Below are positions 28,980 through 57,279 of a stretch of DNA of 57,279 bases, piece after piece. The notes below the pieces were generated by a model, which did not search any database, was not told the origin of the DNA, and was given only the letters and a program-made list of their open reading frames with translations. How positions within the stretch are numbered: position 1 is the stretch's first letter; every line of letters starts with the position of its first letter. The DNA comes from Fidelibacterota bacterium (GTDB taxonomy: Bacteria > Fidelibacterota > Marinisomatia > Marinisomatales > TCS55), in assembly GCA_029936965.1 (NCBI GenBank), contig JAPYRG010000003.1, positions 95,417 through 152,695 on the forward strand, in the 5' to 3' direction. The translations under genes and the position numbers were made by a program.

Positions 28980-31900
28980 ATGCGATCTATCACAGACCAC
29001 TTAAAACGAATTCGTAAAGAAGCAGTGCAAAATGACTTCATAACATTTGCGTGGTTATTATACTCTATTCTCCTAATAATATTTTTTCTAGGAATTGGCT
29101 ATGAATCTATTTTTTATCTATCTAGTTCAATTCGATTATTCATATTAAAAACTCTTCTTGTTTCAGGTCTTCTTATTATTCTATTTGTATTTATAATTAA
29201 TGTATTAATAGAACAAAATAAAATTAAACGTTATTCGTGGTCCAAACTTGCCCGCTCTGCTGGTAAGCTAGCATTCCCCAAAAGTGATGTTGTAATTAAC
29301 GCATTCCAATTAGAAAAGTCTAATAGCCCTATTGAATCAAATTCATTAAGCAATTCTTACATTGATGGGATATCAAAAAAACTAAATAGGTTAAATCTTA
29401 AAAAACTATTTCCAACTAGACTTGCAGAATTTTGGAAAGTAATTAATTTGTTAATTCTTTCATTAGGAATAATAATGATTGTGTTATCTTGGAATTCGAC
29501 ATCAAATGCAATGATCCGATGGGGCCATCCATATCATGAATTTGAGGTTCCAAAACCTTTTTATATTGAAGGAATTACGAGAAATATTCACTTGCTTGGA
29601 GGAGAATCAAGTCCTTTGAATTTTAAAGCTTTTGGACAAGTGCCTGATTCACTTTATCTAGAATTAATTGCTAGTTCAAATGACACATCAATTTTATATA
29701 TAATGAATAGGGATTCTAATGGTTTATATACTTATGAAGTTGAAGACGTATACGAGGATTATAGATATCGAGCATATTCACCAGCAGAATATTTTTGGCA
29801 AGCATGGGATAAAATTATTACACCCTACTATTATATATCGGTTACAGACAGACCAATTATGGAAGAGTTTACAATAAAGATCTCCCCCCCTAATTATTCT
29901 GGTTTACCAATAAGTATTCAAAAAGCAAATCAATCGGATGTAAATGCATTAATAGGTTCATCAATTAGAATTGATTTAAAAAGTAATAGGAAATTAAAAA
30001 ACGGATATTTAAGTCTAAATGAGCAAAAAACACCTTTGAAAATCAAAGGAAAACGGGCAGCTGGTGGATTTATATTTAAAGAAGATGCTTTGCTAAAAAT
30101 ATTATTAGAGGATCATCGTGGTGTAACTAACCAGAACTCTATACCATATTATTTGCAAACAATTCCTGATCTCAAACCTGAAATGAGCGTAATTCAACCG
30201 CAACCAATATTAGAGCTAGGAACTGAACAACAGATTCCTATTCAAATTAAAATTGAAGACGATTTTGGATTTAGTACTCTTCAAATCGGATATGAAATAA
30301 AACGCCCAAGTTATATAGAGAACCAGTCTCAAATATCTATATTCCCGATTTATATTTCTGATCCAAGAATCCTTTCTCAGGAAATAAAGAGTATTTGGAA
30401 GTTAAATAAATATAATCTAATGCCTGAAGATGAAGTCCATTATCATTTTGAATTATATGATAATGATAAAGTTTCTGGACCAAAAAAATCTATTTCAAAT
30501 ACATATATCGCAAGACTTCCCTCTTTGGGTGATTTATTTGCATCAATTGAAGAAAAAGAAGATAAGATGGTGGATGATTTAATCATGAGGTCAAATGAAA
30601 TAGATAAAATACAAGATCAATTAAAGAATCTTAAATTAGAAATGCTAAAATCTGATAAAGTTGATTGGGCTCAAAAGAAACAAATAGAAGAAACATTATC
30701 AAAAATACAAAAGGAAACTGAAGCCTTAAAGAATATTGCTGAATCAATGGAAGCAATTAATAAAGCAGCAGAAAAACATGAATTATTCTCAGATGAGCTT
30801 ATGTTAAAGCTTTCAGAACTTCGTGAATTAGTAAATGAAATATTAGATCCTGAATTAATGACTGATTTAGATGAGATCAAAAAGGCTTTAGATAGAATGA
30901 ATACAAAAGATCTAATGAAAGCGATGGAAAACCTATCATCAAATCTTGATAATATTGAACAACAACTTGATCGTTTTCTTGATATATTTAAAAGAATAAA
31001 AGCAGAACAGAAATTAAATGAAACAGTACAAAGATTAGATAAACTTGTTGAACAACAAGAGCAAACAAATGATAAAATTCAAGATCTTAATTCTAAATCT
31101 GATAAAAACTTATTAGAACAGTTAAGATTTGATGAAAAACGAAATAGCAATGAATATTCCAATATACGCGAAATAATGGAAGACGCCGCTAAAGCAATGG
31201 ATGAATTTGATAAAGAATCATCGCAAGCATTAGAAGATCTTGCGAGTAGTCGCACTGCAAATGAAACTGAATCATTAATAAACCAAACGATAAGACAGCT
31301 TCAAAAGAATCGTAAAGAGAGGGCAAAACAAAAGAGCGCATCTGCATTAGAGAACATGAAGAATATTCAATCAGAGATGAATAAAATTAAAAATCAATTT
31401 GAAAAAAAAACAACTCAAGAAATGGCTTTAAAATTCCAAAATATTTTTAAAAATCTACTTGAACTATCAAAAAATCAAGAATCACTTGAAAAAATAACAA
31501 GATCTATACCAAGAAATTCGCAAAGATTAGGTGAAATGGCAGGAAAACAGCAATTTATACAAGACCAACTAACAAAAATTGTTTCTGAAATAATTGAACT
31601 TTCAAAAGAGACATTTGCAGTTACGCCAAAAATTGGCCAAGGAATGGGAATGGCAAATAATCATATGGAAGAAGCTAAGAAAAGATTGGCAGAAAGAAAC
31701 GGGAGAGGGGCAGCAAACAATCAAAAATCTGCAATGGAAGGATTAAACTCAGCTATTTTAGCAGTTTCACAATCAATGGATCAAATGCAATTAACCGGAT
31801 CAGCAAGTGGATTTGAACAATTTTTAAAACGTATGCAACAAATGTCTGATCAGCAACAGGGAATAAATAATGAAAGCATGCAATTAGCACTAGGTCAGCT

Positions 31901-32387
31901 ATCATCTTCTATTAAAGAAGGGCTTATGGGAAGGCTATTAAGTCAACAGCAACAAGTTCAAAAAAGTCTACAGCAACTAATGAATGAAAGTAAAAAATCA
32001 GGCAAGGGTGGCTTGGGTGATATGCAAGGTATTTCCAAAGAAATAGAAGATGTGATTAATGATTTTCAAAAAAGAAGATATAATCAACAAACGAAAGAAC
32101 GCCAGCAGCGAATATTATCACGAATGCTTGATAGTCAAAAGTCGATGACACAAAGAGGATTTAAAGAAGAGAGGAAAGCAGAAACTGCAAACGAAATCAT
32201 TTATGAAGGCCCATCAGGGCTTCCATTAGACTATGGTCAAAGAAGAAATCTTGCTATGGAAGCCCTAAATCAATCATTAAAAGCTGGTTATTCCCGTGAT
32301 TATCAAACAATGATTAGAAGATATTTTAATTCGTTAAGTAAAATTGAACAAATTAGCACTAAAAAAGACTCGACAATTAATGAATAG
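28980..32387 (+). CDS. DUF4175-like large membrane coiled-coil protein
   Basis: The 1135-residue protein has three transmembrane helices near the N-terminus (about 22-45, 50-75 and 155-175), then a beta-rich region (about 190-510; two domains with PPNYSGLP), and then a very long coiled coil (about 515-1000) rich in Gln, Glu, Lys and Met. The C-terminal part contains Gln-rich segments such as MQQMSDQQQG and RQQRILSRML. It best matches the DUF4175 family of membrane-anchored coiled-coil proteins. A role as an envelope scaffold is a guess. It overlaps the next gene by 8 bases. Confidence 0.7.
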   Translation: MRSITDHLKRIRKEAVQNDFITFAWLLYSILLIIFFLGIGYESIFYLSSSIRLFILKTLLVSGLLIILFVFIINVLIEQNKIKRYSWSKLARSAGKLAFPKSDVVINAFQLEKSNSPIESNSLSNSYIDGISKKLNRLNLKKLFPTRLAEFWKVINLLILSLGIIMIVLSWNSTSNAMIRWGHPYHEFEVPKPFYIEGITRNIHLLGGESSPLNFKAFGQVPDSLYLELIASSNDTSILYIMNRDSNGLYTYEVEDVYEDYRYRAYSPAEYFWQAWDKIITPYYYISVTDRPIMEEFTIKISPPNYSGLPISIQKANQSDVNALIGSSIRIDLKSNRKLKNGYLSLNEQKTPLKIKGKRAAGGFIFKEDALLKILLEDHRGVTNQNSIPYYLQTIPDLKPEMSVIQPQPILELGTEQQIPIQIKIEDDFGFSTLQIGYEIKRPSYIENQSQISIFPIYISDPRILSQEIKSIWKLNKYNLMPEDEVHYHFELYDNDKVSGPKKSISNTYIARLPSLGDLFASIEEKEDKMVDDLIMRSNEIDKIQDQLKNLKLEMLKSDKVDWAQKKQIEETLSKIQKETEALKNIAESMEAINKAAEKHELFSDELMLKLSELRELVNEILDPELMTDLDEIKKALDRMNTKDLMKAMENLSSNLDNIEQQLDRFLDIFKRIKAEQKLNETVQRLDKLVEQQEQTNDKIQDLNSKSDKNLLEQLRFDEKRNSNEYSNIREIMEDAAKAMDEFDKESSQALEDLASSRTANETESLINQTIRQLQKNRKERAKQKSASALENMKNIQSEMNKIKNQFEKKTTQEMALKFQNIFKNLLELSKNQESLEKITRSIPRNSQRLGEMAGKQQFIQDQLTKIVSEIIELSKETFAVTPKIGQGMGMANNHMEEAKKRLAERNGRGAANNQKSAMEGLNSAILAVSQSMDQMQLTGSASGFEQFLKRMQQMSDQQQGINNESMQLALGQLSSSIKEGLMGRLLSQQQQVQKSLQQLMNESKKSGKGGLGDMQGISKEIEDVINDFQKRRYNQQTKERQQRILSRMLDSQKSMTQRGFKEERKAETANEIIYEGPSGLPLDYGQRRNLAMEALNQSLKAGYSRDYQTMIRRYFNSLSKIEQISTKKDSTINE

Positions 32388-45692: not shown

Positions 45693-46610
45693 TTAAAAAG
45701 AATCTACTGTTCTATATGCATCAATTACTGCTTGTTCTCCAGATTTTCCTGATTTAGAGTTACCGTGTTCCATCCCTAGAACACCTTTATATCCTTTTTC
45801 ATAAATATGCTTAAAAATATTCTTATAATTAATTTCCCCAGTTGTTGGTTCTTTTCTACCCGGGTTGTCACCAATTTGAAAATAAGCAATTTCCTCCCAT
45901 GCTTTATCTATATTTGGAATAATATTCCCTTCTGAAATCTGTTGATGATAAATATCAAATAAGATTTTACATGAAGGACTGTTTACCGATCGACAAATTT
46001 CATATGCTTGAGGAATTTCACGCAAAAATTGTCCCGCATGATTTGACCACCAATTTAGTGGTTCTAATACCATAATTAAATCATGTGGCTCTAGCACTTC
46101 ACTTGCTCTTCTTAAAGCTTCTATAACATTTGCGGTTTGATAAGCTGATTCTTTTCCTAAATCCACATGCCCTGGAACAACAGTCATCCATTTAGCATTA
46201 ACGCGCTTTGCAACATCTATTGAATCTTTAATATCTTTTATAAATTGATCCCGGTAATTTCTATCACCACTAGTGAGATTTGGAAAGTCCCAATAAATTT
46301 TATGGGCAACAAAAACACCCATAGTCATACCCAATTTGTTCATTGTTTTTGCGATACGGTTTTGGTCTGAAACTGAACGATCTTTCATCCCATTATCTTC
46401 AAGGGAAAGGAACCCCATATCATACATGAATTGAATTTGATCAACCAAATCACTTCCACTATGTTTACTAAACATTCCAAAGTGTGGTGCATAAAGAAGA
46501 TTAAATGGTTGATTCTCCCTATTTGTTTGGGGTTCACCATAAAGAAGTCCGCCTATAGTTGGAATCGTGGTAGCTAAAAGACTATTTTTTATAAATTTTC
46601 TTCTTTTCAT
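45693..46610 (-). CDS. Tat-exported TIM-barrel sugar isomerase/epimerase-like protein
   Basis: The 305-residue protein starts with a Tat signal (MKRRKFIKNSLLATTIPTIGG), followed by an AP-endonuclease-2-type TIM barrel. Metal-site candidates are Glu in VLEPLNWW, Asp in ILFDIYHQ, His in the QQISEG neighbourhood and Glu in GMEHGNSKSG. The best match is the hydroxypyruvate isomerase-like family. It lies downstream of the Tat-exported Gfo/Idh protein. An exported sugar lyase or isomerase is likely, with the substrate unknown. Confidence 0.82.
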   Translation of the reverse strand: MKRRKFIKNSLLATTIPTIGGLLYGEPQTNRENQPFNLLYAPHFGMFSKHSGSDLVDQIQFMYDMGFLSLEDNGMKDRSVSDQNRIAKTMNKLGMTMGVFVAHKIYWDFPNLTSGDRNYRDQFIKDIKDSIDVAKRVNAKWMTVVPGHVDLGKESAYQTANVIEALRRASEVLEPHDLIMVLEPLNWWSNHAGQFLREIPQAYEICRSVNSPSCKILFDIYHQQISEGNIIPNIDKAWEEIAYFQIGDNPGRKEPTTGEINYKNIFKHIYEKGYKGVLGMEHGNSKSGKSGEQAVIDAYRTVDSF

Positions 46611-46627
46611 TAATCTATCCTTTCAAA

Positions 46628-47965
46628 TTAAATAAATTTTGTTACACCAGGAATAGGAATAGGGTATTTACCGTGTTTATCTGGATAAACAGGCGCACTA
46701 TCTTCAAATGAAGTCAAATTGTTGGGTACAATATTTAAATTAGATGACAATGCTTCATCCCACGTAATTTTCTGCCCTGAATAAGTAGCCATTCTTCCTA
46801 ATATTGCTGTCAGCGTACTATTTACTCCCCTTTGAAAATCTTTATATAAATATTCACCTTCCTTTATTGCTGCAAAAAGCTCATTGTGCTCCTGCTGATA
46901 TGGGTTAATATCATTTTCACCATCATGTAAATATAATTTTCTACCACGATGAGATTGTATTAAACCGTAATTACCACTATGGACATGAATATTCCCTTGC
47001 GATCCTTGGAAAACTTCATCTACTCGATTCATGCATCCAGGTTGATGGCGGCATTGGCTAGAAATTACTTGTCCTTTTGGATATGTAAATTCCACAAAAT
47101 GATGATCAAAAATTTGTCCATTATCTTTTCCATTCCTTATTTCTCTTCCGCCCATTCCTTGAGCAGAAATAGGCGTAGCTCCAATAAACCAATTAGCAAC
47201 ATCTAGATTGTGAATGTGCTGTTCTACAATATGATCTCCGCATAACCAATTAAAATAATACCAATTACGCATCTGGTACTCTAATTCAGTTTGATGTGGA
47301 TTACGTGGTCGTACCCAAACGCCTGCTCCATTCCAGTAAACTTGACCAGAAATAATTCTTCCAACAGATCCTCTACCAATAAGTTTTTTAACCTTACGAT
47401 ACGAACGTTGATAGTGTCTTTGTAAACCAACAACTACATTCAATTTTTTCTTTATAGCAAGTTTCCCTGCATCTATGACTTTCTTTATCCCAACAATATC
47501 AGTTGCTACAGGTTTTTCCATAAACACATGTTTATTATTTTCCACAGCATAAGTAAAATGTTGCGGTCGGAAACCTGGAGGTGTTGTTAGAATAACAACA
47601 TCAGCCATATCTATTGCTTTCTTATATGCATCAAACCCTATGAAACTTGTTTCTTTTAATACGGATAACTGCTCAGAATCGCCATATTTTTCTACAAGTG
47701 AATCCAAACACGATTGCGTCTGATCTTTGAAAACATCTGCTATTGCTACTAATCTAACATCGCGATCCGAAGCAATAGCCTGTATAGCTGCTCCTGTACC
47801 TCTTCCTCCACATCCAACAAGCGCTACTTTTATTTCTCCATCCCATGAATTATATTTTTTTGTAGTCGCAGATAGTTTATTAAATATGATTCCTGCAGCT
47901 GCAATTTTAGCTGAGTTTCCCAAAAATTTTCTCCTATTTATTGTATGATTTTGTTGTTTTTTCAT
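46628..47965 (-). CDS. Tat-exported Gfo/Idh/MocA family oxidoreductase
   Basis: The protein has 445 residues with a Tat signal (INRRKFLGNSAKIAAAG), a Rossmann NAD-binding site VALVGCGGRGTG, the conserved EKPVATDIVG and the C-terminal alpha/beta domain. Exported members of this family carry their cofactor and act on sugars or glycosides, for example as 3-dehydrogenases. With the TIM-barrel gene 17 bases after it, it is probably part of a periplasmic sugar pathway. Substrate is unknown. Confidence 0.9.
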   Translation of the reverse strand: MKKQQNHTINRRKFLGNSAKIAAAGIIFNKLSATTKKYNSWDGEIKVALVGCGGRGTGAAIQAIASDRDVRLVAIADVFKDQTQSCLDSLVEKYGDSEQLSVLKETSFIGFDAYKKAIDMADVVILTTPPGFRPQHFTYAVENNKHVFMEKPVATDIVGIKKVIDAGKLAIKKKLNVVVGLQRHYQRSYRKVKKLIGRGSVGRIISGQVYWNGAGVWVRPRNPHQTELEYQMRNWYYFNWLCGDHIVEQHIHNLDVANWFIGATPISAQGMGGREIRNGKDNGQIFDHHFVEFTYPKGQVISSQCRHQPGCMNRVDEVFQGSQGNIHVHSGNYGLIQSHRGRKLYLHDGENDINPYQQEHNELFAAIKEGEYLYKDFQRGVNSTLTAILGRMATYSGQKITWDEALSSNLNIVPNNLTSFEDSAPVYPDKHGKYPIPIPGVTKFI

Positions 47966-47968
47966 ATT

Positions 47969-48925
47969 TTAATATTCCTTTATAGGTTTAATCCAATATT
48001 TTTCTAACTCATTTTTATTGGCTATAGATTTGGGCCTAATAATTCTAAATCCTACATGTACAGCATCTGTATGCCACCATAAGCTCTTTGGGGACTGGGG
48101 ATCTCTTCTTTTCCATAATTCCTTTGAATAGCCTCTCGCTGCTGAGCGCAACCTTGCTGGACTATCTTTAAATGAACCTCCACGAACTACGCGAGGATAT
48201 AATCTTTCCGCAAATTGTACTGGATCAATTTGTACATTATTATTAACAGAATATCCTTGTGAATTATAATAATCTAATACCCACTCTGCGGCATTACCAT
48301 GCATATCATATATACCTAAGGCATTTGGTTCTTTTAATCCTCCTTTATGTAATTTTCCATCACTATTTTTTTTATACCATGCATACCGTTTAATTGATAT
48401 GCTTGCCTTGCCAAATGAATAAGATTCTTCTGATCCTGCGCGACACGCATACTCCCATTCCACCTCGGTAGGCAACCTGTAAAAATTCCCTGTTTTTGCA
48501 GTTAGCCATTTACAAAATTGTGAGGCAGCATACTGAGTAACATTTATAACAGGATGACCTGGCTGATTATAATTTTCATAGGGCATTGTTGCTCCAGATA
48601 TAGCATCAATATCCATATTATACTTTTCATTATCTACTAATAATGAATCAATATTTCTAAGTAAAAATAATTCGTATAAATCCCAGGAAACTTCTAATGA
48701 ACTTATCCAGTAATCGCTTACGAAGACTTGATGTGTTGGTCCTTCATCTTCACGTCTTCTTTTTTCTGATTCAAGGCTTCCCATCCTAAATTCTCCTCCA
48801 GAAACAGGAATCATTCGAATACTTTGATCTGTACCAATTAATGTTTCATCATATTCCACAAATTTTGAATTATCTATTTGAGCAAATAAGATGGAAACAA
48901 ATATTAGAAATGGAAATCTATCCAA
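47969..48925 (-). CDS. SUMF1/FGE-domain secreted protein
   Basis: The 318-residue protein has a signal peptide and a formylglycine-generating-enzyme-type fold: VSGGEFRMGS, YRLPTEVEWEYACRAGS, MHGNAAEWVLDYY, RVVRGGSFKDS and the end VGFRIIRP. The Cys pair that follows RGGS in true FGE (as in LCHxxYC) is missing here, so it is unlikely to mature sulfatases; no sulfatase is in the window. The start is TTG at 48925 with no strong ribosome binding site. It precedes the Gfo/Idh gene by 3 bases and probably belongs to the same operon. Confidence 0.85.
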   Translation of the reverse strand: MDRFPFLIFVSILFAQIDNSKFVEYDETLIGTDQSIRMIPVSGGEFRMGSLESEKRRREDEGPTHQVFVSDYWISSLEVSWDLYELFLLRNIDSLLVDNEKYNMDIDAISGATMPYENYNQPGHPVINVTQYAASQFCKWLTAKTGNFYRLPTEVEWEYACRAGSEESYSFGKASISIKRYAWYKKNSDGKLHKGGLKEPNALGIYDMHGNAAEWVLDYYNSQGYSVNNNVQIDPVQFAERLYPRVVRGGSFKDSPARLRSAARGYSKELWKRRDPQSPKSLWWHTDAVHVGFRIIRPKSIANKNELEKYWIKPIKEY

Positions 48926-48933
48926 ATTGATAA

Positions 48934-49659
48934 TTAAAATAACTTTGGAATAAGCATCCCTGTTTTCTGTTTATACTCTTTCCATTCAGGATAACGAGAC
49001 ATGGAAGCTTCTTTCTGTAAAATATTGACCAAGAATACTCCAATCCAAACCCAAGCCAAAATAGCCCATGGAATCCAATGTTGAACTATCATCGCATACG
49101 ATGCATAAAGCATAATCTCTCCAAGATAATTTGGATGCCGAATATATTTAAATAAGCCTTCCTTAATAAGTCCCTGATGATATTTTAATGTATAATATTT
49201 CTGACAATCAGCTACCATCATAATTACAACACCTAAAGTGTGTATACTGATTGCAGCTGTTAATATTGGAATACTTGCCATTTTTTGATCTGGTCCCAAT
49301 ATTCCTGAAATTAAAAGGAATGGGAAAACCCAGTAAAGACCCAACACTAATATAAATGCCATAAGTCCACCGCCAACAGTTACCTTTTTTTTCCAACTTC
49401 TATCAGGAAATGCAAAATGTTTTAACATCCAGCAAAAACCATACATTCCATGTAAAGCTAGATAAACACTTGCGGATACAGAAAAATTTTGATAAAAATT
49501 CATTAATAATAGTATGTAAAAAAAAGTACCAGTTTTTTGGAAATTAATGACCCACGATAATTTTAATATTTGTGGACCTCCAAGAAATCTTTCAGTCATA
49601 AAACTTGTAAAACGAGCCCAATGAAACCATAATGGTACATTCGATTGCTTCTCATTCAT
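48934..49659 (-). CDS. Membrane methyltransferase-like protein (DUF1295/isoprenylcysteine methyltransferase family)
   Basis: The 241-residue protein has about six hydrophobic segments and the family signature FKYIRHPNYLGEIMLYA near residue 170, with a conserved EWKEYKQKTGMLIP at the end. It belongs to the ICMT/PEMT/DUF1295 steroid-reductase-like group, so methyl transfer to a lipid or reduction of a lipid double bond are both possible. A very good ribosome binding site (AAGGAGG) lies seven bases before the ATG. Confidence 0.82.
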   Translation of the reverse strand: MNEKQSNVPLWFHWARFTSFMTERFLGGPQILKLSWVINFQKTGTFFYILLLMNFYQNFSVSASVYLALHGMYGFCWMLKHFAFPDRSWKKKVTVGGGLMAFILVLGLYWVFPFLLISGILGPDQKMASIPILTAAISIHTLGVVIMMVADCQKYYTLKYHQGLIKEGLFKYIRHPNYLGEIMLYASYAMIVQHWIPWAILAWVWIGVFLVNILQKEASMSRYPEWKEYKQKTGMLIPKLF

Positions 49660-49718
49660 AATGTCCTCCTTAATATTGGATTATGATAGTAACAATTTAT
49701 TAAAATATTCTCACTCTA

Positions 49719-50465
49719 TCAGTTGAGATTCTCATCAGAAAAAGGGTTGTTTGGGTGAACCATGGGTACGAAACGCACCGGTATAATAGTTTTTTCATTT
49801 ATATTTGAATCCGATGTTTTTGAAATGACTTTTAGTTCCTGCCAATATTTACCAACAGGAATTACTAGTTTTCCTCCAGTTTTTAATTGTTTAATAAGCG
49901 CCTCTGGTATTGTATCGGGCGCTGCAGTTACGATTATACAATCAAATGGTGCTTCAGTAGGCCATCCTTTGTATCCATCTCCCCAACGTACATACACATT
50001 ATGTATCTCTAATTCTTGCAATACTTTTTTTGCTTGTACAGCAAGAGATTTTACTATTTCAATTGTGTATACTTTATTAGATAATAATGATAGTATAGCA
50101 GATTGATAACCAGAACCTGTGCCAATCTCTAAAACTTTTTCTTTACCAGATAAACTCAATAATTCAGTCATAAGAGCAACAATATATGGTTGTGAAATTG
50201 TCTGGCCTTCACCTATAGGTAACGGACTATCATCATACGCATAAAGGACCATATCAGTAGGTACAAATTTATGTCGTGGGGTGTTACTTAATACATCCAA
50301 AACTTTTGGATCTACTATACCACGATCTTTAATCTGCTTTTTCACCATCGTTTGTGCAGCAATTTTCCAATCGGAAGGAAAATCATTGTTATTATTCTGA
50401 TCTGCATTTCCAAACAAAGGTAAAACTAATATGGTAAATGATTGTATTAATAATTTTACCTTCAT
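49719..50465 (-). CDS. pcm: Exported protein-L-isoaspartate O-methyltransferase
   Basis: PCMT repairs isoaspartyl residues using SAM. Motifs are PRHKFVP, IGEGQTISQPYIVALM, the SAM site VLEIGTGSGYQSAIL, DGYKGWP and FDCIIVTAAPD. Unlike cytosolic PCMT it carries a hydrophobic N-terminal extension ending LPLFGNA, probably a signal peptide, so it should act in the periplasm; SAM supply there is unexplained. The 248 residues include this extension. It lies 15 bases after the SDR gene. Confidence 0.9.
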   Translation of the reverse strand: MKVKLLIQSFTILVLPLFGNADQNNNNDFPSDWKIAAQTMVKKQIKDRGIVDPKVLDVLSNTPRHKFVPTDMVLYAYDDSPLPIGEGQTISQPYIVALMTELLSLSGKEKVLEIGTGSGYQSAILSLLSNKVYTIEIVKSLAVQAKKVLQELEIHNVYVRWGDGYKGWPTEAPFDCIIVTAAPDTIPEALIKQLKTGGKLVIPVGKYWQELKVISKTSDSNINEKTIIPVRFVPMVHPNNPFSDENLN

Positions 50466-50480
50466 AGAATAAAAAAACTA

Positions 50481-51251
50481 TTATTTAATTGCTGAATTAA
50501 TTTCCTCTATGAAACTATCCTGTAGTTTTTGCATTCCTTCTATCCACCCTTCATAATCTGCAGCTTTAAATTGAATGTATTCCCTGACTTGTTTATGAGG
50601 GGTAACCAAAAACTGATCATTTTCAATTGCTTCTAATGTATCATTTGCAACAACCTCAGGTTCAATCATTCCATCTATTCCAGCAACGCCAGCTCCTTGT
50701 GCAGTCATTGCTGTTCGTACAGCTTGTGGGCAGATACACGATACCCCAATTCCATCCTTTCCATATGTAATCTTCAACCATTCAGCCAAACTAACAACCG
50801 CATGCTTGGTTACTGAATACGTAACTGAACCTAGCTGTGATAATAGACCAGCAGCGGAAGCTGTAAAAACGAAATGACCTGATCCACGATCTAACATCTG
50901 TTGAAGCACATGTCGGACACCATATATATGCGACATGAGGTTTGTATCAATCATTTTGCGCCACTGTTCATTGCTAAGTTTTAAAAAATCTTCATATGCC
51001 CCAATACCTACATTTGAACAATATATATCTATATCGTGTTCACATGCATTAATCATCTTTTTTACATCTTCTTCTTTAGTAACATCCGTTGTAATTGCTG
51101 TACCATTGATTTTATCTGCTACATCTTTCACTCCATCTGTATTGATATCTGAAACAATAATATTTTTGGCGCTCGCATTATAAAAAGCAATCGCAAGAGC
51201 TTCACCAATTCCACTGGCAGCCCCTGTTATAATAACATTTGTATTTTTTAT
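50481..51251 (-). CDS. Short-chain dehydrogenase/reductase with a non-ATG start
   Basis: The frame contains a full classical SDR: TGAASGIG cofactor loop, the CSNVGIG segment (NAG-equivalent), catalytic Ser in FTASAAG and YxxxK in YSVTKHAVV. The first ATG/GTG/TTG candidate (GTG 51131) is inside the fold and would delete the TGxxxGIG loop. The open frame runs upstream to a stop at 51288-51290, but no ATG, GTG or TTG lies between that stop and the loop. I place the start at ATA 51251 (IKNTNVIITG) because it is where homologues have Met; ATA 51260 is the other candidate. The 256 residues match the family. Substrate is unknown. Confidence 0.7.
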   Translation of the reverse strand: MKNTNVIITGAASGIGEALAIAFYNASAKNIIVSDINTDGVKDVADKINGTAITTDVTKEEDVKKMINACEHDIDIYCSNVGIGAYEDFLKLSNEQWRKMIDTNLMSHIYGVRHVLQQMLDRGSGHFVFTASAAGLLSQLGSVTYSVTKHAVVSLAEWLKITYGKDGIGVSCICPQAVRTAMTAQGAGVAGIDGMIEPEVVANDTLEAIENDQFLVTPHKQVREYIQFKAADYEGWIEGMQKLQDSFIEEINSAIK

Positions 51252-51301
51252 TTGGATTATGGACCTTAAATAATATTTGTTATTGGATTATGAAGCTTTT
51301 A

Positions 51302-51784
51302 TTAATCTTCATCTAATATTTTATTAGGCTGATAATCCATTGCTTTTAATGCAACGCTTTTAAAGCCCACATTGGATCCATGTTCCCCAACATTGAGTCT
51401 TTCCAAAGATGATTTAAACGGAAATCCTTTTGCCCAAGTTCTTGAATAACCTTTTTCCTTGGATATAAATGCTTGATCATGAATTTCTATGCGATATTTA
51501 AACTTTGGATTGTATGCAATAAGAGCTATTCTATCTTCTACTTTTGAATTATCATATCTATAAGCGCCCCGATGCTTACCTAAATTAACTTCCCAAATTA
51601 AATATCCTTCTTCATATAATTCCATCGTAATAGGTAATGGGGCTCCCGTAATCTCTGAACGGTTGTAGTCATCATCTTTAAATAAACATGATGTTATTTC
51701 CACAGAGTACATTTGCTTTCGCTGTAAAATTTGATCACAGGAGAAAAAGGATAAGCAAGTAATAAGTACTAAGGTTTTTCTCAT
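51302..51784 (-). CDS. Small lipoprotein of unknown function
   Basis: The 160-residue protein begins MRKTLVLITCLSFFSCDQ, a lipoprotein signal with Cys at about residue 16. The mature part is beta-rich with no recognised domain (LYEEGYLIWEVNLGKHRGAY; VEDRIALIAYNPKFKYRIEI). It lies one base after the SCP2-like gene's stop codon and 11 bases before the stop upstream of the SDR frame. A partner role for its lipid-related neighbours is only a guess. Confidence 0.65.
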   Translation of the reverse strand: MRKTLVLITCLSFFSCDQILQRKQMYSVEITSCLFKDDDYNRSEITGAPLPITMELYEEGYLIWEVNLGKHRGAYRYDNSKVEDRIALIAYNPKFKYRIEIHDQAFISKEKGYSRTWAKGFPFKSSLERLNVGEHGSNVGFKSVALKAMDYQPNKILDED

Positions 51785-51785
51785 T

Positions 51786-52079
51786 CTAAAATAAAGTTTG
51801 AAGTTTCATTGCAACGCTCATATCTCCAGACACTTGAATCTGTCCGCCCATAAAAGCTGCCATTGGGTTTAATTCTCCAGATAACATTGATTCAAAATCA
51901 TCAAGACTCATATCTATAGTACATTGAGTTTCAGAATCATCTGTTGATACTACATTGGAATCGCCTGTGCCATTAATTACAATCTGGGAATCTCCAAAGT
52001 TAAATTTTATACTTGCACCCATTGGGCTTGTGTTGCCAGCCATCTCTGATACCTTTGTAATTATATTTTCTAAACTCAT
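51786..52079 (-). CDS. SCP2-like sterol carrier domain protein
   Basis: From ATG 52079 the protein has 97 residues and the SCP2 pattern: SIKFNFGDSQIVINGTGD, TQCTIDMSLDDFESMLSGE and the C-terminal AAFMGGQIQVSGDMSVAMKL. The longer open frame to 52139 adds residues unlike the family; AGGAG lies about ten bases before ATG 52079. SCP2 domains bind hydrophobic lipids. It heads a minus-strand run with a lipoprotein and an SDR. Confidence 0.8.
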   Translation of the reverse strand: MSLENIITKVSEMAGNTSPMGASIKFNFGDSQIVINGTGDSNVVSTDDSETQCTIDMSLDDFESMLSGELNPMAAFMGGQIQVSGDMSVAMKLQTLF

Positions 52080-52198
52080 CGGTAATATACTCCTAAAATT
52101 TATTGCAAAAGGTATGTTACGATTAGCAAATTTGTACATAAATTGTCATTATTCAAATTATTTAGACGATCAAATAATTAGAATTGAAAAGGAAAATC

Positions 52199-53020
52199 AT
52201 GAAAAAATTCATTCTATCTACATTTTTACTAATAACTATGATCGTAGTTAGTTGTGAAGATGATGAATCTACCGTTGAAGCACCAACTGCAAGGTTCACT
52301 TACATCGTACATCAAGATGACGGGTTAATTATTAATTTTACAAATTCATCATTAAATGCCGACATATATATCTGGGACTTTGGTGATGGTTCGTCTTCAG
52401 CAGAATTGAATCCAAATCATACGTATGAAGCTAGTGGAACATATACTGTAAGTTTGACTGCAACAAATTCTGGGGGATCTGATGTGGCTTCTGAAGAAAT
52501 TGAAGTCACAGGTGCTTTAACATATGCCGATCTTGTGGATACTTGGAAAGTGGCTCCGGAAGCTGGTGCATTAGCTGTAGGGCCAACCCAGGGTGATGGA
52601 AGTTGGTGGTCATTATCTGAAGCTGACGTTACAACAAGGTCATGTTTCATGGATGACAAATATACGTTAGGAAGTGATGGCTCATTCTTCATTGCAATGG
52701 ATGGCGAAACTTGGCTGGAAGCAGCCTTTCAAGGAGTGGATTCTGATCAGTGTGGTACACCTGTTGCACCTCATGATGGCTCTGGCTCATACACATATGA
52801 ATCAAATGCTTTTGATGCTACTCTAACTTTATCTGGTGAGGGTGCCTTTATGGGTTTACCTAAAGCCAATAATAATGGTGAGCTTCCAAACACTGATGTT
52901 CCAACATCAATCACCTATACAATTACTGAGTTTGTCAGAGATGGTGCTGGCAAAAGACTTGTTTTAGATATTGAATGTGATTTTGGTCTTTGGTGGCGTT
53001 TTACGTTTGTTTCACAATAA
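52199..53020 (+). CDS. PKD-domain lipoprotein, probable surface glycan-binding protein
   Basis: The 273-residue lipoprotein starts MKKFILSTFLL with lipobox VVSC. A PKD domain follows (about 30-110; IYIWDFGDGSSS, NPNHTYEASGTYTVSLTAT). The C-terminal domain (about 115-273) has WKVAPEAGALAVGPTQGDG, GSWWSL and TRSCFMDDKYTL. These resemble PKD-linked domains found next to laminarinases in marine Bacteroidota, so beta-glucan binding is a reasonable guess. ATG 52199 is preceded by AAGGA. Its base composition is visibly richer in G and C than its neighbours. It is followed by a long perfect hairpin. Confidence 0.78.
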   Translation: MKKFILSTFLLITMIVVSCEDDESTVEAPTARFTYIVHQDDGLIINFTNSSLNADIYIWDFGDGSSSAELNPNHTYEASGTYTVSLTATNSGGSDVASEEIEVTGALTYADLVDTWKVAPEAGALAVGPTQGDGSWWSLSEADVTTRSCFMDDKYTLGSDGSFFIAMDGETWLEAAFQGVDSDQCGTPVAPHDGSGSYTYESNAFDATLTLSGEGAFMGLPKANNNGELPNTDVPTSITYTITEFVRDGAGKRLVLDIECDFGLWWRFTFVSQ

Positions 53021-53029
53021 ATTCATACC

Positions 53030-53071
53030 GATAATATTAGGCGGCTGAACAATCAGCCGCCTAATATTATC
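53030..53071. terminator. Long perfect hairpin after the PKD lipoprotein gene
   Basis: A 19-base perfect inverted repeat (stem with GGCGGCTGA, loop ACAA) lies 10 bases after the stop at 53020 and 68 bases before the GH16 gene. There is no T run on either side, so it is a terminator candidate without the usual tail, or a 3' stabilising structure. Confidence 0.55.
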
Positions 53072-53138
53072 AAATCAATCTTGATATTTTTCATACTATA
53101 AAACACAATCTAAAGGCAAAGAATAATTAACTTTAAAT

Positions 53139-54311
53139 ATGGAATTTCTAAGAAAATTCTTAATCACATCTATTGTATTTCCTTTTTTTTCATGTAATAA
53201 TGATACCAAGGATAGCCCCCCTAGCGTATATATAGAAAGTGTTCAAGTAGAAGAAGGAAATACAAATAATAATCTTGAAATAACTTTAACGTTGTCTAAT
53301 GCTGTTGATTATGACCTTTCTGTGGATGTGCGTACTGTAGATGGAACGGCGATGAAAGATAAAGATTATACTGATTTATACGAAATAATTGTCTTTTCTG
53401 CTGGGCAAGAACAGTCCTCATTTAATATTGAGATTCTTGGTGATGATACTCCGGAGGATAATGAAATATTTTCAATTAGACTTGAAAATCCATATAATGT
53501 AACCATAGAAAATAATATAGCTACGGTTACGATCATTAATGATGATGAGCATATTTTTTCTATCCCGGAAACTGGCTATTCCACTCCCGAAACATATGAA
53601 GGCATGAATTTAGTGTGGAGCGACGAATTTGATGGATCTACTATTAACATGAATAACTGGATATTTGAGATTGGTACAGGAAATTGGGGGTGGGGAAATA
53701 ATGAATTACAATATTATCAAGAAGATAATTCAAGTATAATTGAAGGGAATCTTGTGATTGAAGCAAGAAGACAAACACTAGACAATAGTAATTATACATC
53801 TTCCCGATTAATTACAAGAGGGAAGCAATCTTTTCGATACGGTCGTGTGGATATACGCGCAGTTATGCCGGAAGGTCAAGGAATATGGCCAGCCTTATGG
53901 ATGCTAGGGAGCAATCATCAACAAGTTGGTTGGCCTGCGTGTGGTGAAATTGATATTATGGAAATGATAGGCGGTGGCGATGGAAGAGATAATGTGCTTC
54001 GAGGAACTGCACATTGGAATCAAGGAGGTACCGTATCGCATGGTCAAGGATATACACATGAATCTAACTTAAGCGAAGAATATCATGTGTATTCCATTAT
54101 GTGGGATGAACAAAATATACGCTGGTATTTTGATGATATAAACTTCAACACCATGGATATAACACCAGCGGAATTAAGTGCGTTTCATAATAATTTCTAT
54201 TTTATAATGAATGTTGCGGTTGGTGGGGAATGGCCAGGTAGCCCGGATAATACAACTTTTTTCCCTCAATGGATGATCGTTGATTATATACGAGTATTCC
54301 AAGAAAACTAA
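53139..54311 (+). CDS. Lipoprotein endo-beta-glucanase, Calx-beta plus GH16 domains
   Basis: The 390-residue protein has a lipobox FFSC, a Calx-beta domain (about 27-140; SVYIESVQVEEGNTNNN, DDTPEDNEIFSIRLE, VTIINDDEH) and a GH16 catalytic domain from about 160 (LVWSDEFDGSTINMNNW). The catalytic ExDxxE motif is complete: GEIDIMEM with Glu270, Asp272 and Glu275. PEGQGIWPALWML and the final DYIRVFQ are family signatures. GH16 of this type cleaves beta-1,3- or mixed beta-1,3/1,4-glucans such as laminarin; the exact substrate is inferred. It is probably exposed on the cell surface. Confidence 0.9.
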   Translation: MEFLRKFLITSIVFPFFSCNNDTKDSPPSVYIESVQVEEGNTNNNLEITLTLSNAVDYDLSVDVRTVDGTAMKDKDYTDLYEIIVFSAGQEQSSFNIEILGDDTPEDNEIFSIRLENPYNVTIENNIATVTIINDDEHIFSIPETGYSTPETYEGMNLVWSDEFDGSTINMNNWIFEIGTGNWGWGNNELQYYQEDNSSIIEGNLVIEARRQTLDNSNYTSSRLITRGKQSFRYGRVDIRAVMPEGQGIWPALWMLGSNHQQVGWPACGEIDIMEMIGGGDGRDNVLRGTAHWNQGGTVSHGQGYTHESNLSEEYHVYSIMWDEQNIRWYFDDINFNTMDITPAELSAFHNNFYFIMNVAVGGEWPGSPDNTTFFPQWMIVDYIRVFQEN

Positions 54312-54439: not shown

Positions 54440-55768
54440 ATGAAAATTACCAGATTATTACAATTATTTTTCATTCTTTCAATTATCTTCGTTCCATCAT
54501 GTGGTGATAATGATGAAGAGATTATAGTACTGGAAGAGGTTACGCTTATTTCATTTGAAGAAGCAACATTCTCTGAAGACGAATTCATCATTTATTTAAC
54601 GGAAGATCCCATCGGAAAAACATTTTCTTTCGGGCCTGGGACATACAGTTTTGCAAATACAATTCCACTGGCAGATATTGATAATCTTACTATTAAAGGT
54701 GCCGGGATTAATGAAACGTATTTTGATTTTAGTAATTCCACTTCTACCACCGGTGAAGGAATTGCTGCCGTAGATTGTTCTAATTTACTTTTCTGTGGAT
54801 TTACTGTTCAAAACACGAATGGCGGAAATGGTATCACAGCAAGAAATATTACAGGACTTAGATTCGATGGCGTTGGTGTTGTATGGTCAGAAAGAAGTTC
54901 AGATAATGGAGCGTATGGTATATATCCTGTGGAGAGCGATGATATTATTGTAGAAAATTGTTACACCCAAGCAGCTGTTGACGCAGGCATATATTCTGGT
55001 CAAAATCAACGGGTAATTATGAGAAATAATGTAATGACCCTAAATGTTTTTGGAATGGAAGCGGAGAACAATATAGATGTAGAGATATATGGGAATGAAT
55101 TTACTAGAAACACCACTGGTCTATTGACATATGACCTTTTTGGCGTTAGCAGAATTAAATCTGGTTCTAACTGTAAAGTCTATAACAATACATTTACAGA
55201 TAATAATGAAAGTAATTTTGCTGAATTAGGAAGTGGCCTGGCAGCAGATGTCCCGCCTGGTTTTGGGATTTTATATTCTGCCACTACCGCATTAGAAATT
55301 ACAGGTAATACATTTGTTGACAATGAATGCGGTGCAGTACTTGGAGTTGCATATTTTCTAGTAGATTTTAATTTTGATCCTAATGAGGATTCATCCTTTA
55401 CCTTTTTGAATGAAGATATTTACATACATGACAATTCATATAGTAGCGGTGGTGGAACGTATAATGTAGCTGGAATATTAGACCGACCAGCAGGTCCACT
55501 TGTATGGTACACTATAGCCTTGAATGGAAATGTTAGACCAGATATTTTCCTAGATGACCAGGACTATACTGCTGGTGGGGCTCCATATGCTGGTTCAAGA
55601 GCCGTGATTGAGGAGTCTTCCGATGTAGTATTAATTGAGGCTAATTTTGTGCAGGCTGGCGATGGTATCATTACAATAACCTCAACATCATTAGATGATT
55701 TTACTGGTACAGGAACTACTCATACCAATTTTGATTTAGTTGATACGCCATCGGATTGCGTAGAATAG
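54440..55768 (+). CDS. Parallel beta-helix lipoprotein (TIGR03805-like)
   Basis: ATG 54440 gives 442 residues with lipobox VPSC; AAGGA lies seven bases upstream. Right-handed beta-helix repeats fill the middle (about 85-330): NLTIKGAGINETYFDF, ITARNITGLRFDGVGV, DIIVENCYTQAAVDAGIYS, VEIYGNEFTRNTTGL. Acidic C-terminal segments follow. The match is to the beta-helix family TIGR03805, which as I recall is regularly encoded beside an SO2930-type diheme cytochrome; the next gene, 16 bases on, is exactly that. Function is unknown. Polysaccharide lyase or epimerase activity is a possibility of the fold but no catalytic residues are certain. Confidence 0.8.
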   Translation: MKITRLLQLFFILSIIFVPSCGDNDEEIIVLEEVTLISFEEATFSEDEFIIYLTEDPIGKTFSFGPGTYSFANTIPLADIDNLTIKGAGINETYFDFSNSTSTTGEGIAAVDCSNLLFCGFTVQNTNGGNGITARNITGLRFDGVGVVWSERSSDNGAYGIYPVESDDIIVENCYTQAAVDAGIYSGQNQRVIMRNNVMTLNVFGMEAENNIDVEIYGNEFTRNTTGLLTYDLFGVSRIKSGSNCKVYNNTFTDNNESNFAELGSGLAADVPPGFGILYSATTALEITGNTFVDNECGAVLGVAYFLVDFNFDPNEDSSFTFLNEDIYIHDNSYSSGGGTYNVAGILDRPAGPLVWYTIALNGNVRPDIFLDDQDYTAGGAPYAGSRAVIEESSDVVLIEANFVQAGDGIITITSTSLDDFTGTGTTHTNFDLVDTPSDCVE

Positions 55769-55784
55769 GTCTGGTCTATCAAAT

Positions 55785-56855
55785 ATGCAAAAAACATTCT
55801 TTATTGTCATTTTATTTTTAATTACACTGCTGAGTAGTTCATGTAATATTGAAGATAAATATGCTCCAATAAATGAATATGCAAATATTGATTTAAGCCA
55901 GGTGCCTTATAATAATCTTTCAGATTATAAATTTTTTACTGGAGAGATGAATGAGCTAAACCCTGATCAAGGTGTTTATTCATATAATGTGACTTCACCA
56001 TTGTTTTCTGATTATACTTCGAAAGAAAGATTCATTTATTTACCAGAAGGCACTAATATGGAATATCAAGGTGATTTTAATGTATTAAATTTTCCAATTG
56101 GGACAATCATCATAAAAAACTTTATCTATTACAAGGATATTAGAGATAAATCTCTTGGGAGAACAATTATAGAAACTAGGCTTCTTGTAAGGAAAGAGAC
56201 CAAGTGGAAACCATTTAGTTATAAATGGAACGATGAACAAACAGAAGCCGCCAGATTAATAGTTGGTGGGACAGTAACAGGTTCAACAATTGCTGAAAAT
56301 GGCAATCTGAAAGAAATTCCCAGATATGTTATACCAAGAGAATTAGATTGTAGAACCTGTCATAATTTGAATGAAGATATGTTGCCTATTGGACCTAAGC
56401 CAGCTAATCTGAATCGTCTTATGGCAGATGATTTATCTGTAAATCAAATAGAAAATTTTGTGGAACAAGGAATCCTCAGCGGGACTCCTGCGAACATAAG
56501 CCAGGTTCCAGATTATAGGGATACTTCACTTGATCCTATAACAAGGGGAAAAGCATACTTAGATGCTAATTGTGCATTCTGTCATCGCCAAGGAGGAACA
56601 GCAAATGCGAATGGATTATTTATTAATTGGGATTATGAAGGAGAAGGAATTCATACTGGAATTTTCAAAATACCAACAAATTTTAATGCTCCTGATTTAC
56701 AATATGATATTGTTCCAGGGAGCCCTGATGAATCCATCTTACTATACCGTATGACACAGACTCAAGCGCCGGATGTCATGCCTCAAATTGGACGTTCAAT
56801 CAATCATGATGAAGGCATTGAAATTATCAGGGAATATATTTACAATATTGAATAA
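55785..56855 (+). CDS. Diheme c-type cytochrome lipoprotein (SO2930/TIGR03806-like)
   Basis: The 356-residue protein has a lipobox (LLSSSC) and two heme-binding CxxCH motifs: CRTCH at 189-193 and CAFCH at 263-267. A late MPQIGR provides possible axial Met. Segments SYNVTSPLFSDYTSKERFIYL and FPIGTIIIKNFIYYKD precede the first heme. This is the TIGR03806 (SO2930) family layout. The gene follows the beta-helix gene by 16 bases, so the pair is probably co-transcribed. The partner redox protein is not visible in the window. Confidence 0.85.
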   Translation: MQKTFFIVILFLITLLSSSCNIEDKYAPINEYANIDLSQVPYNNLSDYKFFTGEMNELNPDQGVYSYNVTSPLFSDYTSKERFIYLPEGTNMEYQGDFNVLNFPIGTIIIKNFIYYKDIRDKSLGRTIIETRLLVRKETKWKPFSYKWNDEQTEAARLIVGGTVTGSTIAENGNLKEIPRYVIPRELDCRTCHNLNEDMLPIGPKPANLNRLMADDLSVNQIENFVEQGILSGTPANISQVPDYRDTSLDPITRGKAYLDANCAFCHRQGGTANANGLFINWDYEGEGIHTGIFKIPTNFNAPDLQYDIVPGSPDESILLYRMTQTQAPDVMPQIGRSINHDEGIEIIREYIYNIE

Positions 56856-57127
56856 TTATGATATGCAAATGATGATAGCGCTGAGCACCCGGCTGAACCT
56901 ATTATTATATTTCGATCGCCATCCTTCGGAATTTTTTTAAAAACATGTGTGACTTCCCAGACTAAGCTATATAATATATCTTCAGTCACATTAAACGTAT
57001 ATAATATTTTATTACACGATAATAAATATATATTTCATTTAGATAATATTACACTATGTATGTCTTAAATGCCTAGGAACAAAAAAATCTAACTCATTAT
57101 CTTTTACTAATGGTAAAATCTAGGACA
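56856..57127. other. Intergenic leader before Rrf2-type gene
   Basis: The 272 bases between the cytochrome gene and the regulator hold no open frame of note. A short T run follows a weak GC-rich stretch at about 56915-56940, which could serve as a poor terminator. The rest is AT-rich and may hold the regulator's promoter, but I cannot place it reliably. Confidence 0.4.
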
Positions 57128-57279
57128 ATGTTATATAGCAAATCAGCAGAGTATGCTATACAAGCAATGATTTATCTTGCAGAGAATAAATCAGATAAAC
57201 CGATTATGACCTCTAAAATTTCTGAAGAGTACAATATCCCACATCAATTTCTAGCAAAAATAGTACAAACACTTGTAAA
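57128..57279 (+). CDS. Rrf2 family transcriptional regulator, 5' part only
   Basis: The frame starts at ATG 57128 (AGGA just upstream) and runs off the window after about 50 residues. MLYSKSAEYAIQAMIYLA is the standard Rrf2/IscR N-terminus, and SEEYNIPHQFLAKIVQTL is its helix-turn-helix. Whether it binds an iron-sulfur cluster depends on the three C-terminal Cys, which lie outside the window. It may control the upstream lipoprotein genes or something downstream; nothing here decides this. Confidence 0.88.
   Translation, partial: MLYSKSAEYAIQAMIYLAENKSDKPIMTSKISEEYNIPHQFLAKIVQTLV

Follow-up and report, generated by a model that had tools for sequence, protein, structure and literature searches.

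MbnP, MopE and CorA are exported proteins whose genes are paired with those of diheme c-type enzymes related to MauG, and their oxidation by the enzyme is known or proposed (PMC3621798, PMC3912023). MbnH/MbnP, SACCP/MopE, CorB/CorA and MauG/methylamine dehydrogenase share this organization with the pair described here, which is formed by a right-handed beta-helix protein of family TIGR03805 and a diheme cytochrome of the TIGR03806 type, and a MauG/MbnH-type enzyme is moreover the alternative partner of the same beta-helix family. The pair differs from these systems in that TIGR03806 gave no detected homology to the CCP/MauG fold in any search, and in that the partner protein is a beta-helix and not MbnP, MopE, CorA or MauA. 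As for the two families themselves, SO_2930 and SO_2931 of Shewanella oneidensis have been catalogued among the outer-membrane or extracellular c-type cytochromes (PMC4837345), and SO2931 was removed in a Shewanella mutant for all outer-membrane cytochromes (PMC5829830). In the literature we found, SO_2930 and SO_2931 appear only in such lists and multi-gene deletions, and no function is assigned to TIGR03805 or TIGR03806.

The locus studied here belongs to a Fidelibacterota genome and lies in a stretch of 57,279 nucleotides that was analysed as a whole (hereafter the window); its features are collected in Table 1. Both products carry export signals: P0001 has a signal peptide with a VPSC lipobox whose cysteine is followed by an acidic segment (CGDNDEE), P0002 has a signal peptide ending in SSSC, and 16 bases separate the stop of the first gene from the start of the second. 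The first-pass annotation, which had described two neighbouring lipoprotein genes with this gap and lipobox and two CxxCH motifs in the second protein, agrees with the coordinates and N-termini, and the motifs are exactly two. It had also named the families, and both profiles indeed match. P0001 reached 230.7 bits against TIGR03805 (curated NCBIfam cut-off 141.5; profile positions 11-286 of 314) and is a member of that family. P0002 matched TIGR03806 with 300.3 bits (E 1.5e-89; positions 3-312 of 314), 13 bits below the cut-off of 313.3, and is by score a sub-threshold relative and not a formal member, as are its paralogue (291.6 bits) and orthologue (289.1 bits); it has the two CxxCH motifs, and a TIGR03805 gene is present in the same genome, directly upstream. 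Like other TIGR03805/TIGR03806 pairs, the window pair presents the beta-helix gene and then the cytochrome gene on one strand, both exported and with full-length matches. Unlike them, it has a cytochrome under the cut-off, its beta-helix (judged from the orthologue L013) stands on a long branch in the type A part of the tree described below, and its genome holds a second, 82-84% identical pair. The first-pass annotation is correct in its observation, which concerns a known but uncharacterised pair.

Table 1. Features of the beta-helix/cytochrome locus (positions in the window; gene ends include the stop codon)
Feature	Position	Strand	Evidence
TIGR03805 beta-helix lipoprotein gene (P0001), 442 aa	54440..55768	+	ORF, TIGR03805 and Pfam matches, AlphaFold2 model
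Codon of W149, kept only in the SO2930-partnered beta-helix clade	54884..54886	+	conservation across partner types
Conserved patch, residues 159-210 (Y159, Y162, D181, Y185, E207, E209, N210), probably outward-facing	54914..55069	+	conservation; facing from strand alternation
SO2930-type diheme c-type cytochrome lipoprotein gene (P0002), 356 aa, TIGR03806-like, sub-threshold	55785..56855	+	ORF, TIGR03806 match
N-terminal beta-rich heme domain, residues 43-193, cytochrome P460-like at family level	55911..56363	+	model, Foldseek, Pfam on relatives
Codon of Lys111, invariant (62/62), aligned with heme-cross-linking Lys78 of M. capsulatus P460	56115..56117	+	alignment (weak)
Heme 1 motif CRTCH, residues 189-193, in a domain with no conserved His/Met sixth-ligand candidate	56349..56363	+	motif, conservation
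Heme 2 motif CAFCH, residues 263-267, class I cytochrome c / cbb3 subunit III-like domain	56571..56585	+	motif, Pfam, conservation
Codon of Met332, invariant, likely axial ligand of heme 2 (MPxxGR)	56778..56780	+	conservation

Homologues of both genes were found together in other genomes, as the first-pass annotation had stated for these families. The census drew on TIGR03805 matches over the cut-off from samples taken by class or phylum (Gammaproteobacteria, Bacteroidia, Alphaproteobacteria and the phylum of the window), plus 80 contig loci found with the cytochrome, and partners were assigned by profile searches of six-frame translations around each match. Four arrangements were distinguished. 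Type A is a beta-helix gene beside a TIGR03806 gene (46 same-strand pairs in the cytochrome-found contig loci, with a median gap of 4 bases), and type F, present in some Gammaproteobacteria, is a single polypeptide of about 1000 aa with the beta-helix ahead of the TIGR03806 domain, which bears out the statement of the first-pass annotation that the two are sometimes fused. Type B is again one polypeptide, of about 765 aa, in which a MauG-type diheme part precedes the beta-helix, and type C has a MauG/MbnH-type diheme gene and, after it, a gene for a beta-helix of about 500-530 aa that carries a monoheme motif at its C-terminus.

The two proteins form a genuine and nearly obligate pair. Of the 247 Bacteroidia genomes, 39 encode a type A beta-helix of full length and 36 an over-cut-off TIGR03806; the beta-helix is present, linked or unlinked, in all 36 genomes with the cytochrome, and the cytochrome in 36 of the 39 with the beta-helix (Fisher p 3.6e-40, a value that ignores the relatedness of the genomes). 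One of the three remaining genomes (G396) has a split TIGR03806 copy below the cut-off. Where a beta-helix has no cytochrome next door, the cytochrome is encoded elsewhere in the genome in 16 of 17 cases, and genomes with only type B or C have no over-cut-off TIGR03806 (0/16). In the alphaproteobacterial sample every over-cut-off beta-helix is partnered, 11 as type A and 2 as type C. Exceptions do occur: in G551 and G578 type A beta-helices are found together with a type C operon while TIGR03806 is absent, and in G449 the beta-helices have neither partner nearby. Seventeen Bacteroidia genomes have only full or partial TIGR03806 matches below the cut-off, and 16 of these are without a beta-helix.

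Several loci of unusual composition were met during this census. In L030, L036, L052, L060, L067 and other Flavobacterium/Chryseobacterium loci, a TIGR03806-like cytochrome with no adjoining beta-helix is followed by a T9SS protein of about 671 aa with FG-GAP and UnbV_ASPIC domains. Loci L260 to L263 combine in one operon a MauG/MbnH-type diheme, a monoheme-tailed beta-helix, a type A beta-helix and an SDR; L260 and L262 also contain a phytoene-desaturase-like gene, and L260 and L261 also TIGR03806, so that both systems are found in one cluster. The Pseudoalteromonas plasmid pPBSW1 (L321, 6607-14431) encodes a 2157-aa protein with a TIGR03806-like region, adjoining a DUF1552 gene, and two Bacteroidia genomes (G424, G546) have a TIGR03806 domain within open frames of 1350-1820 aa.

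The diheme partner of the beta-helix is not always the same protein. The type C partner has as its best NCBIfam matches TIGR04039 (MbnH, 3.6e-69) and TIGR03791 (MauG, 1.5e-58), both below their curated cut-offs; over the alternative partners, E-values against the MauG/MbnH families run from 1e-55 to 1e-69, and the N-terminal half of type B matches Pfam CCP_MauG. TIGR03806 is replaced in these loci by an unrelated diheme protein of the MauG/MbnH family. In a quick maximum-likelihood tree of the beta-helix domains, type A, the solo beta-helices and type F are separated from types B and C with an SH-aLRT support of 100, and types B and F form one group each; the exchange of the diheme partner therefore tracks an ancient divergence within the beta-helix, and since the sister clade has a MauG/MbnH-family partner, two unrelated diheme proteins serve one beta-helix family. 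The window orthologue L013 stands on a long branch within the A/F part of the tree; the window sequence had been dropped from the tree for redundancy, so that its exact place is unsure and L013 stands in for it.

The source genome illustrates both arrangements. Its assembly of 2.14 Mb contains a second, paralogous pair (84% and 82% identity) on the minus strand of a short contig (G000:C27, L022, 459-2872), where it fills most of the 3.4 kb. A 765-aa protein supplies a third TIGR03805 domain in its C-terminal half, the N-terminal half being a diheme CCP_MauG domain (E 7e-52); after this fusion (G000:C7, L023:8072-10369) comes the gene for an 801-aa protein whose C-terminal tail is T9SS-like (L023:10387-12792). 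The MauG-beta-helix fusion is present in 6/6 genomes of the genus, the SO2930-type pair in 2/6.

The beta-helix nature of P0001 is indicated by Pfam Beta_helix PF13229 (E 6e-19) and by a confident AlphaFold2 model of a right-handed beta-helix (pLDDT 83, pTM 0.84), a fold that it shares with mannuronan C5-epimerases and beta-helix lyases. By sequence no solved structure matches P0001 or P0002, and profile searches for solved structures returned just generic beta-helix and chance matches. The Foldseek neighbours nearest to the P0001 model are the alginate C5-epimerases AlgE4 and AlgE6 and polysaccharide lyases (E 3e-7 to AlgE4), the AlgE A-module and PL6 lyases being the top matches. The likeness seen is that of the right-handed beta-helix fold: the TM-score is about 0.5 and the catalytic Tyr-Asp-His motif of AlgE (YGFDPH) is not aligned at the profile level, since hhalign places it out of register with a probability of 20%; by eye, the YGIYPV of P0001 would be without the Asp and His of this motif. 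An AlgE-type epimerase identity was considered and not adopted, the fold agreeing and the profile alignment not, and because the catalytic motif is not alignable by profiles, no enzymatic assignment of the beta-helix is made. The acidic polymer proposed as its ligand in the first-pass annotation is accordingly not borne out as worded but may still be correct, since the nearest folds are those of alginate epimerases and polysaccharide lyases.

Conservation in the aligned beta-helices singles out a patch that probably faces outward, to judge from the alternation of strand residues. Y159, D181, Y185, E207, E209 and N210 are kept in all partner types and Y162 becomes Phe in type C. No Trp is conserved across all partner types, W149 being clade-specific: 107/108 type A and 8/8 fused (type F) sequences have it, against 0/35 of types B and C, where all 35 show a gap at this place. 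A NosD-like Pfam score was seen for P0001, and no conserved His or Met cluster was found in the aligned beta-helices.

P0002 also gave a confident AlphaFold2 model (pLDDT 90). Across 62 TIGR03806 homologues, K80, R82, K111, E130, R132, W141, Y146, W148, both CxxCH motifs and M332 are invariant. No His or Met that could be the sixth ligand of heme 1 is conserved within the heme 1 domain of these homologues; H341, conserved at 95%, sits in the second domain. Neither NCBIfam nor Pfam gave a MauG or MbnH match to P0002, which by these searches is outside the CCP_MauG family and fold.

The heme 1 domain weakly resembles cytochrome P460 and cytochrome c'-beta, a resemblance that is likely but not established. 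In M. capsulatus P460, Lys78 is the residue cross-linked to the heme (PMC6427953; PMC11928373), and what TIGR03806 would share with these proteins is a beta-sheet heme domain ending in CxxCH and a P-x-G-x4-K motif whose lysine occupies the cross-link position; this lysine is Lys111, present in 62/62 members, on an underlying alignment that is weak. Pfam PF16694 (Cytochrome_P460) matched 18/62 members at E<=1 (best 1.4e-4), and its better matches run in register from the Lys111 strand through to the heme 1 CxxCH; the gathering cut-off of 27 bits was not reached, the best individually scanned relative scoring 21.1 bits and P0002 being undetected. With a custom P460 profile, the best real member scored 16.1 bits versus 8.3 for the top of 248 controls (sequences reversed, or shuffled with CxxCH kept). 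P0002 scored only 0.1 bits, so that the P460 reading rests on its relatives. Foldseek ranked P460 6th and cytochrome c'-beta 17th for the P0002 model, with E-values of 0.4-0.95 and low TM-scores, and hhalign of TIGR03806 against P460 (probability 10.6%, 15 columns) placed Lys111 on A5 column 50, that is on Lys78 of McP460. Plain P460 membership of P0002 was not adopted, Pfam cut-off, Foldseek E-value and hhalign probability all being weak. TIGR03806 differs from P460 and c'-beta by this weak sequence and fold similarity, by its fusion to a second, class I cytochrome c domain, and by a cross-link that is only putative.

What surrounds the pair is of local character. Just upstream lie a GH16 lipoprotein with a Calx-beta domain and an intact EIDIME motif and a PKD lipoprotein (window 52184-54311), which may together form a small unit for laminarin-type binding and cleavage; from this unit to the pair, no SusCD-like genes were seen. 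The GH16/PKD order is kept in the sister species (G001), where an opposite-strand gene of 227 aa separates GH16 from the pair and a neighbouring gene looks by eye like a GH43 enzyme. Over 99 non-redundant loci, the pair has no general neighbour gene. TonB receptor genes are modestly enriched within two genes (16/372 versus 8/575 genes, p 0.009, uncorrected), occur at 13/99 loci and flank the pair on both sides in Novosphingobium; sulfatase-like genes lie within two genes in 7 of the 99 loci; a phytoene-desaturase-like gene recurs beside type B/C loci (5 versus 0); and SDR neighbours show no significant enrichment (p 0.18). No relatives of the pair were found on viral contigs. Since the neighbours vary from taxon to taxon and none is general, a glycan-utilisation locus as a property of the pair was rejected: the glycan genes, taken in the first-pass annotation as a possible clue to the role of the pair, are particular to the window locus and its orthologue and local to its genus.

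The rest of the window contains other groups of genes. The start of an Rrf2-family regulator lies directly downstream of the pair (57110-57279), interrupted by the contig end. On the minus strand, genes for an SCP2 sterol-transfer protein, an SDR and a DUF1295/steroid-reductase-like membrane protein are clustered (48934-52139), a cluster kept in G001 (L185), and a xylose-isomerase-like TIM barrel, a Gfo/Idh/MocA oxidoreductase and an FGE-sulfatase-like gene stand in a row (45693-48925). A 1135-aa DUF4175 protein is encoded at 28980-32387.

For the function, the reading we favour, tentatively and at rather less than an even chance, is that the pair consists of a beta-helix and an oxidising diheme oxidoreductase comparable to MauG/MbnH, surface-bound or periplasmic, acting on or through the conserved Tyr/Asp/Glu face. 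Heme 1, whose P460-like beta-sheet domain carries the invariant lysine and leaves the distal side open, would be the site of oxidation, and heme 2, in an ordinary cytochrome c domain, the electron exit to the respiratory chain. The cytochrome would dock on the beta-helix, whose conserved face would be the place of action; the target would be residues of this face, as for MauG/MbnH-type enzymes and their partner proteins, or a ligand bound there. Pairing, co-occurrence, fusions and partner swap are observed, whereas we infer the catalysis and chemistry of heme 1, the docking face and the substrate. To our knowledge no peroxidase or modification activity has been described for the pair, which speaks against an oxidising enzyme. 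Further points against this reading are the low P460 score of P0002 with the weak hhalign and Foldseek matches, the lack of a Trp common to all the beta-helices, and the exceptional genomes G551, G578 and G449. Of the two-protein system proposed in the first-pass annotation, the exported pair with co-localised and fused homologues stands, and the ligand, the glycan clue and the electron role do not stand as worded. A cytochrome that moves electrons is probably an incomplete description, because the alternative partners are of the MauG/MbnH type and heme 1 lies in a P460-like domain without a conserved distal His or Met. If the cytochrome were nevertheless an outer-membrane electron carrier and the beta-helix a mere scaffold, which we consider quite improbable, the normal class I domain of heme 2 would be expected, as would the place of SO_2930/SO_2931 among outer-membrane or extracellular cytochromes (PMC4837345) and the deletion of SO2931 in the mutant for all of them (PMC5829830). 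Two hemes about 70 residues apart in a small protein are however unlikely to span a membrane alone, no recurring porin-like gene was noticed next door in the neighbourhoods viewed, the alternative partner belongs to an oxidising enzyme class, and the face of the beta-helix is conserved beyond the apparent need of a scaffold.

Two other readings give the oxidising enzyme a different object. The groove of the beta-helix could bind or cleave a polysaccharide and the diheme enzyme oxidise the bound sugar or the released product, which would agree with the AlgE4/AlgE6 and lyase folds (E 3e-7), with the upstream GH16 and PKD lipoproteins, their order and the GH43-looking gene in the sister species, and with the sulfatase-like genes in 7 loci and TonB receptors in 13/99. 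We regard it as a minority option, somewhat unlikely: such fold neighbours are expected for any right-handed beta-helix, the AlgE motif is not recovered by profile alignment, glycan genes are not general neighbours of the pair, and an opposite-strand gene stands between pair and GH16 in the sister species. Less credible still is metal acquisition, in which the diheme enzyme would equip the surface protein with a site for copper or iron and the metal would then pass to a TonB-dependent receptor, as in MopE/SACCP, CorA/CorB and MbnP/MbnH. The MbnH/MauG family of the alternative partner, the TonB enrichment with its Novosphingobium example, the NosD-like score and the CorA and MopE precedents (PMC3912023, PMC3621798) would fit; yet the beta-helix has no conserved His/Met cluster, its conserved face being Tyr/Asp/Glu/Asn, TonB neighbours are a minority partly shared by descent, and NosD similarity is generic to beta-helix repeats.

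New in this analysis are the exchange of the diheme partner, a co-occurrence that is almost perfect, a Trp confined to one clade of the beta-helix, and a P460-like heme accompanied by an invariant lysine. The pair is present in several bacterial phyla, and the partner swap together with the invariant lysine at the P460 position turns a "function unknown" into specific testable predictions. A bolder form of the favoured reading, which we think unlikely, would make TIGR03806 a second, independently evolved class of protein-oxidising diheme enzyme, combining a P460-type lysine-cross-linked heme with a class I cytochrome c; its role would be the maturation or activation of a beta-helix surface protein, and it would be functionally interchangeable with MauG/MbnH. 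The favoured reading itself, if correct, would bring a new diheme enzyme fold into the oxidative modification of proteins or substrates at the bacterial surface.
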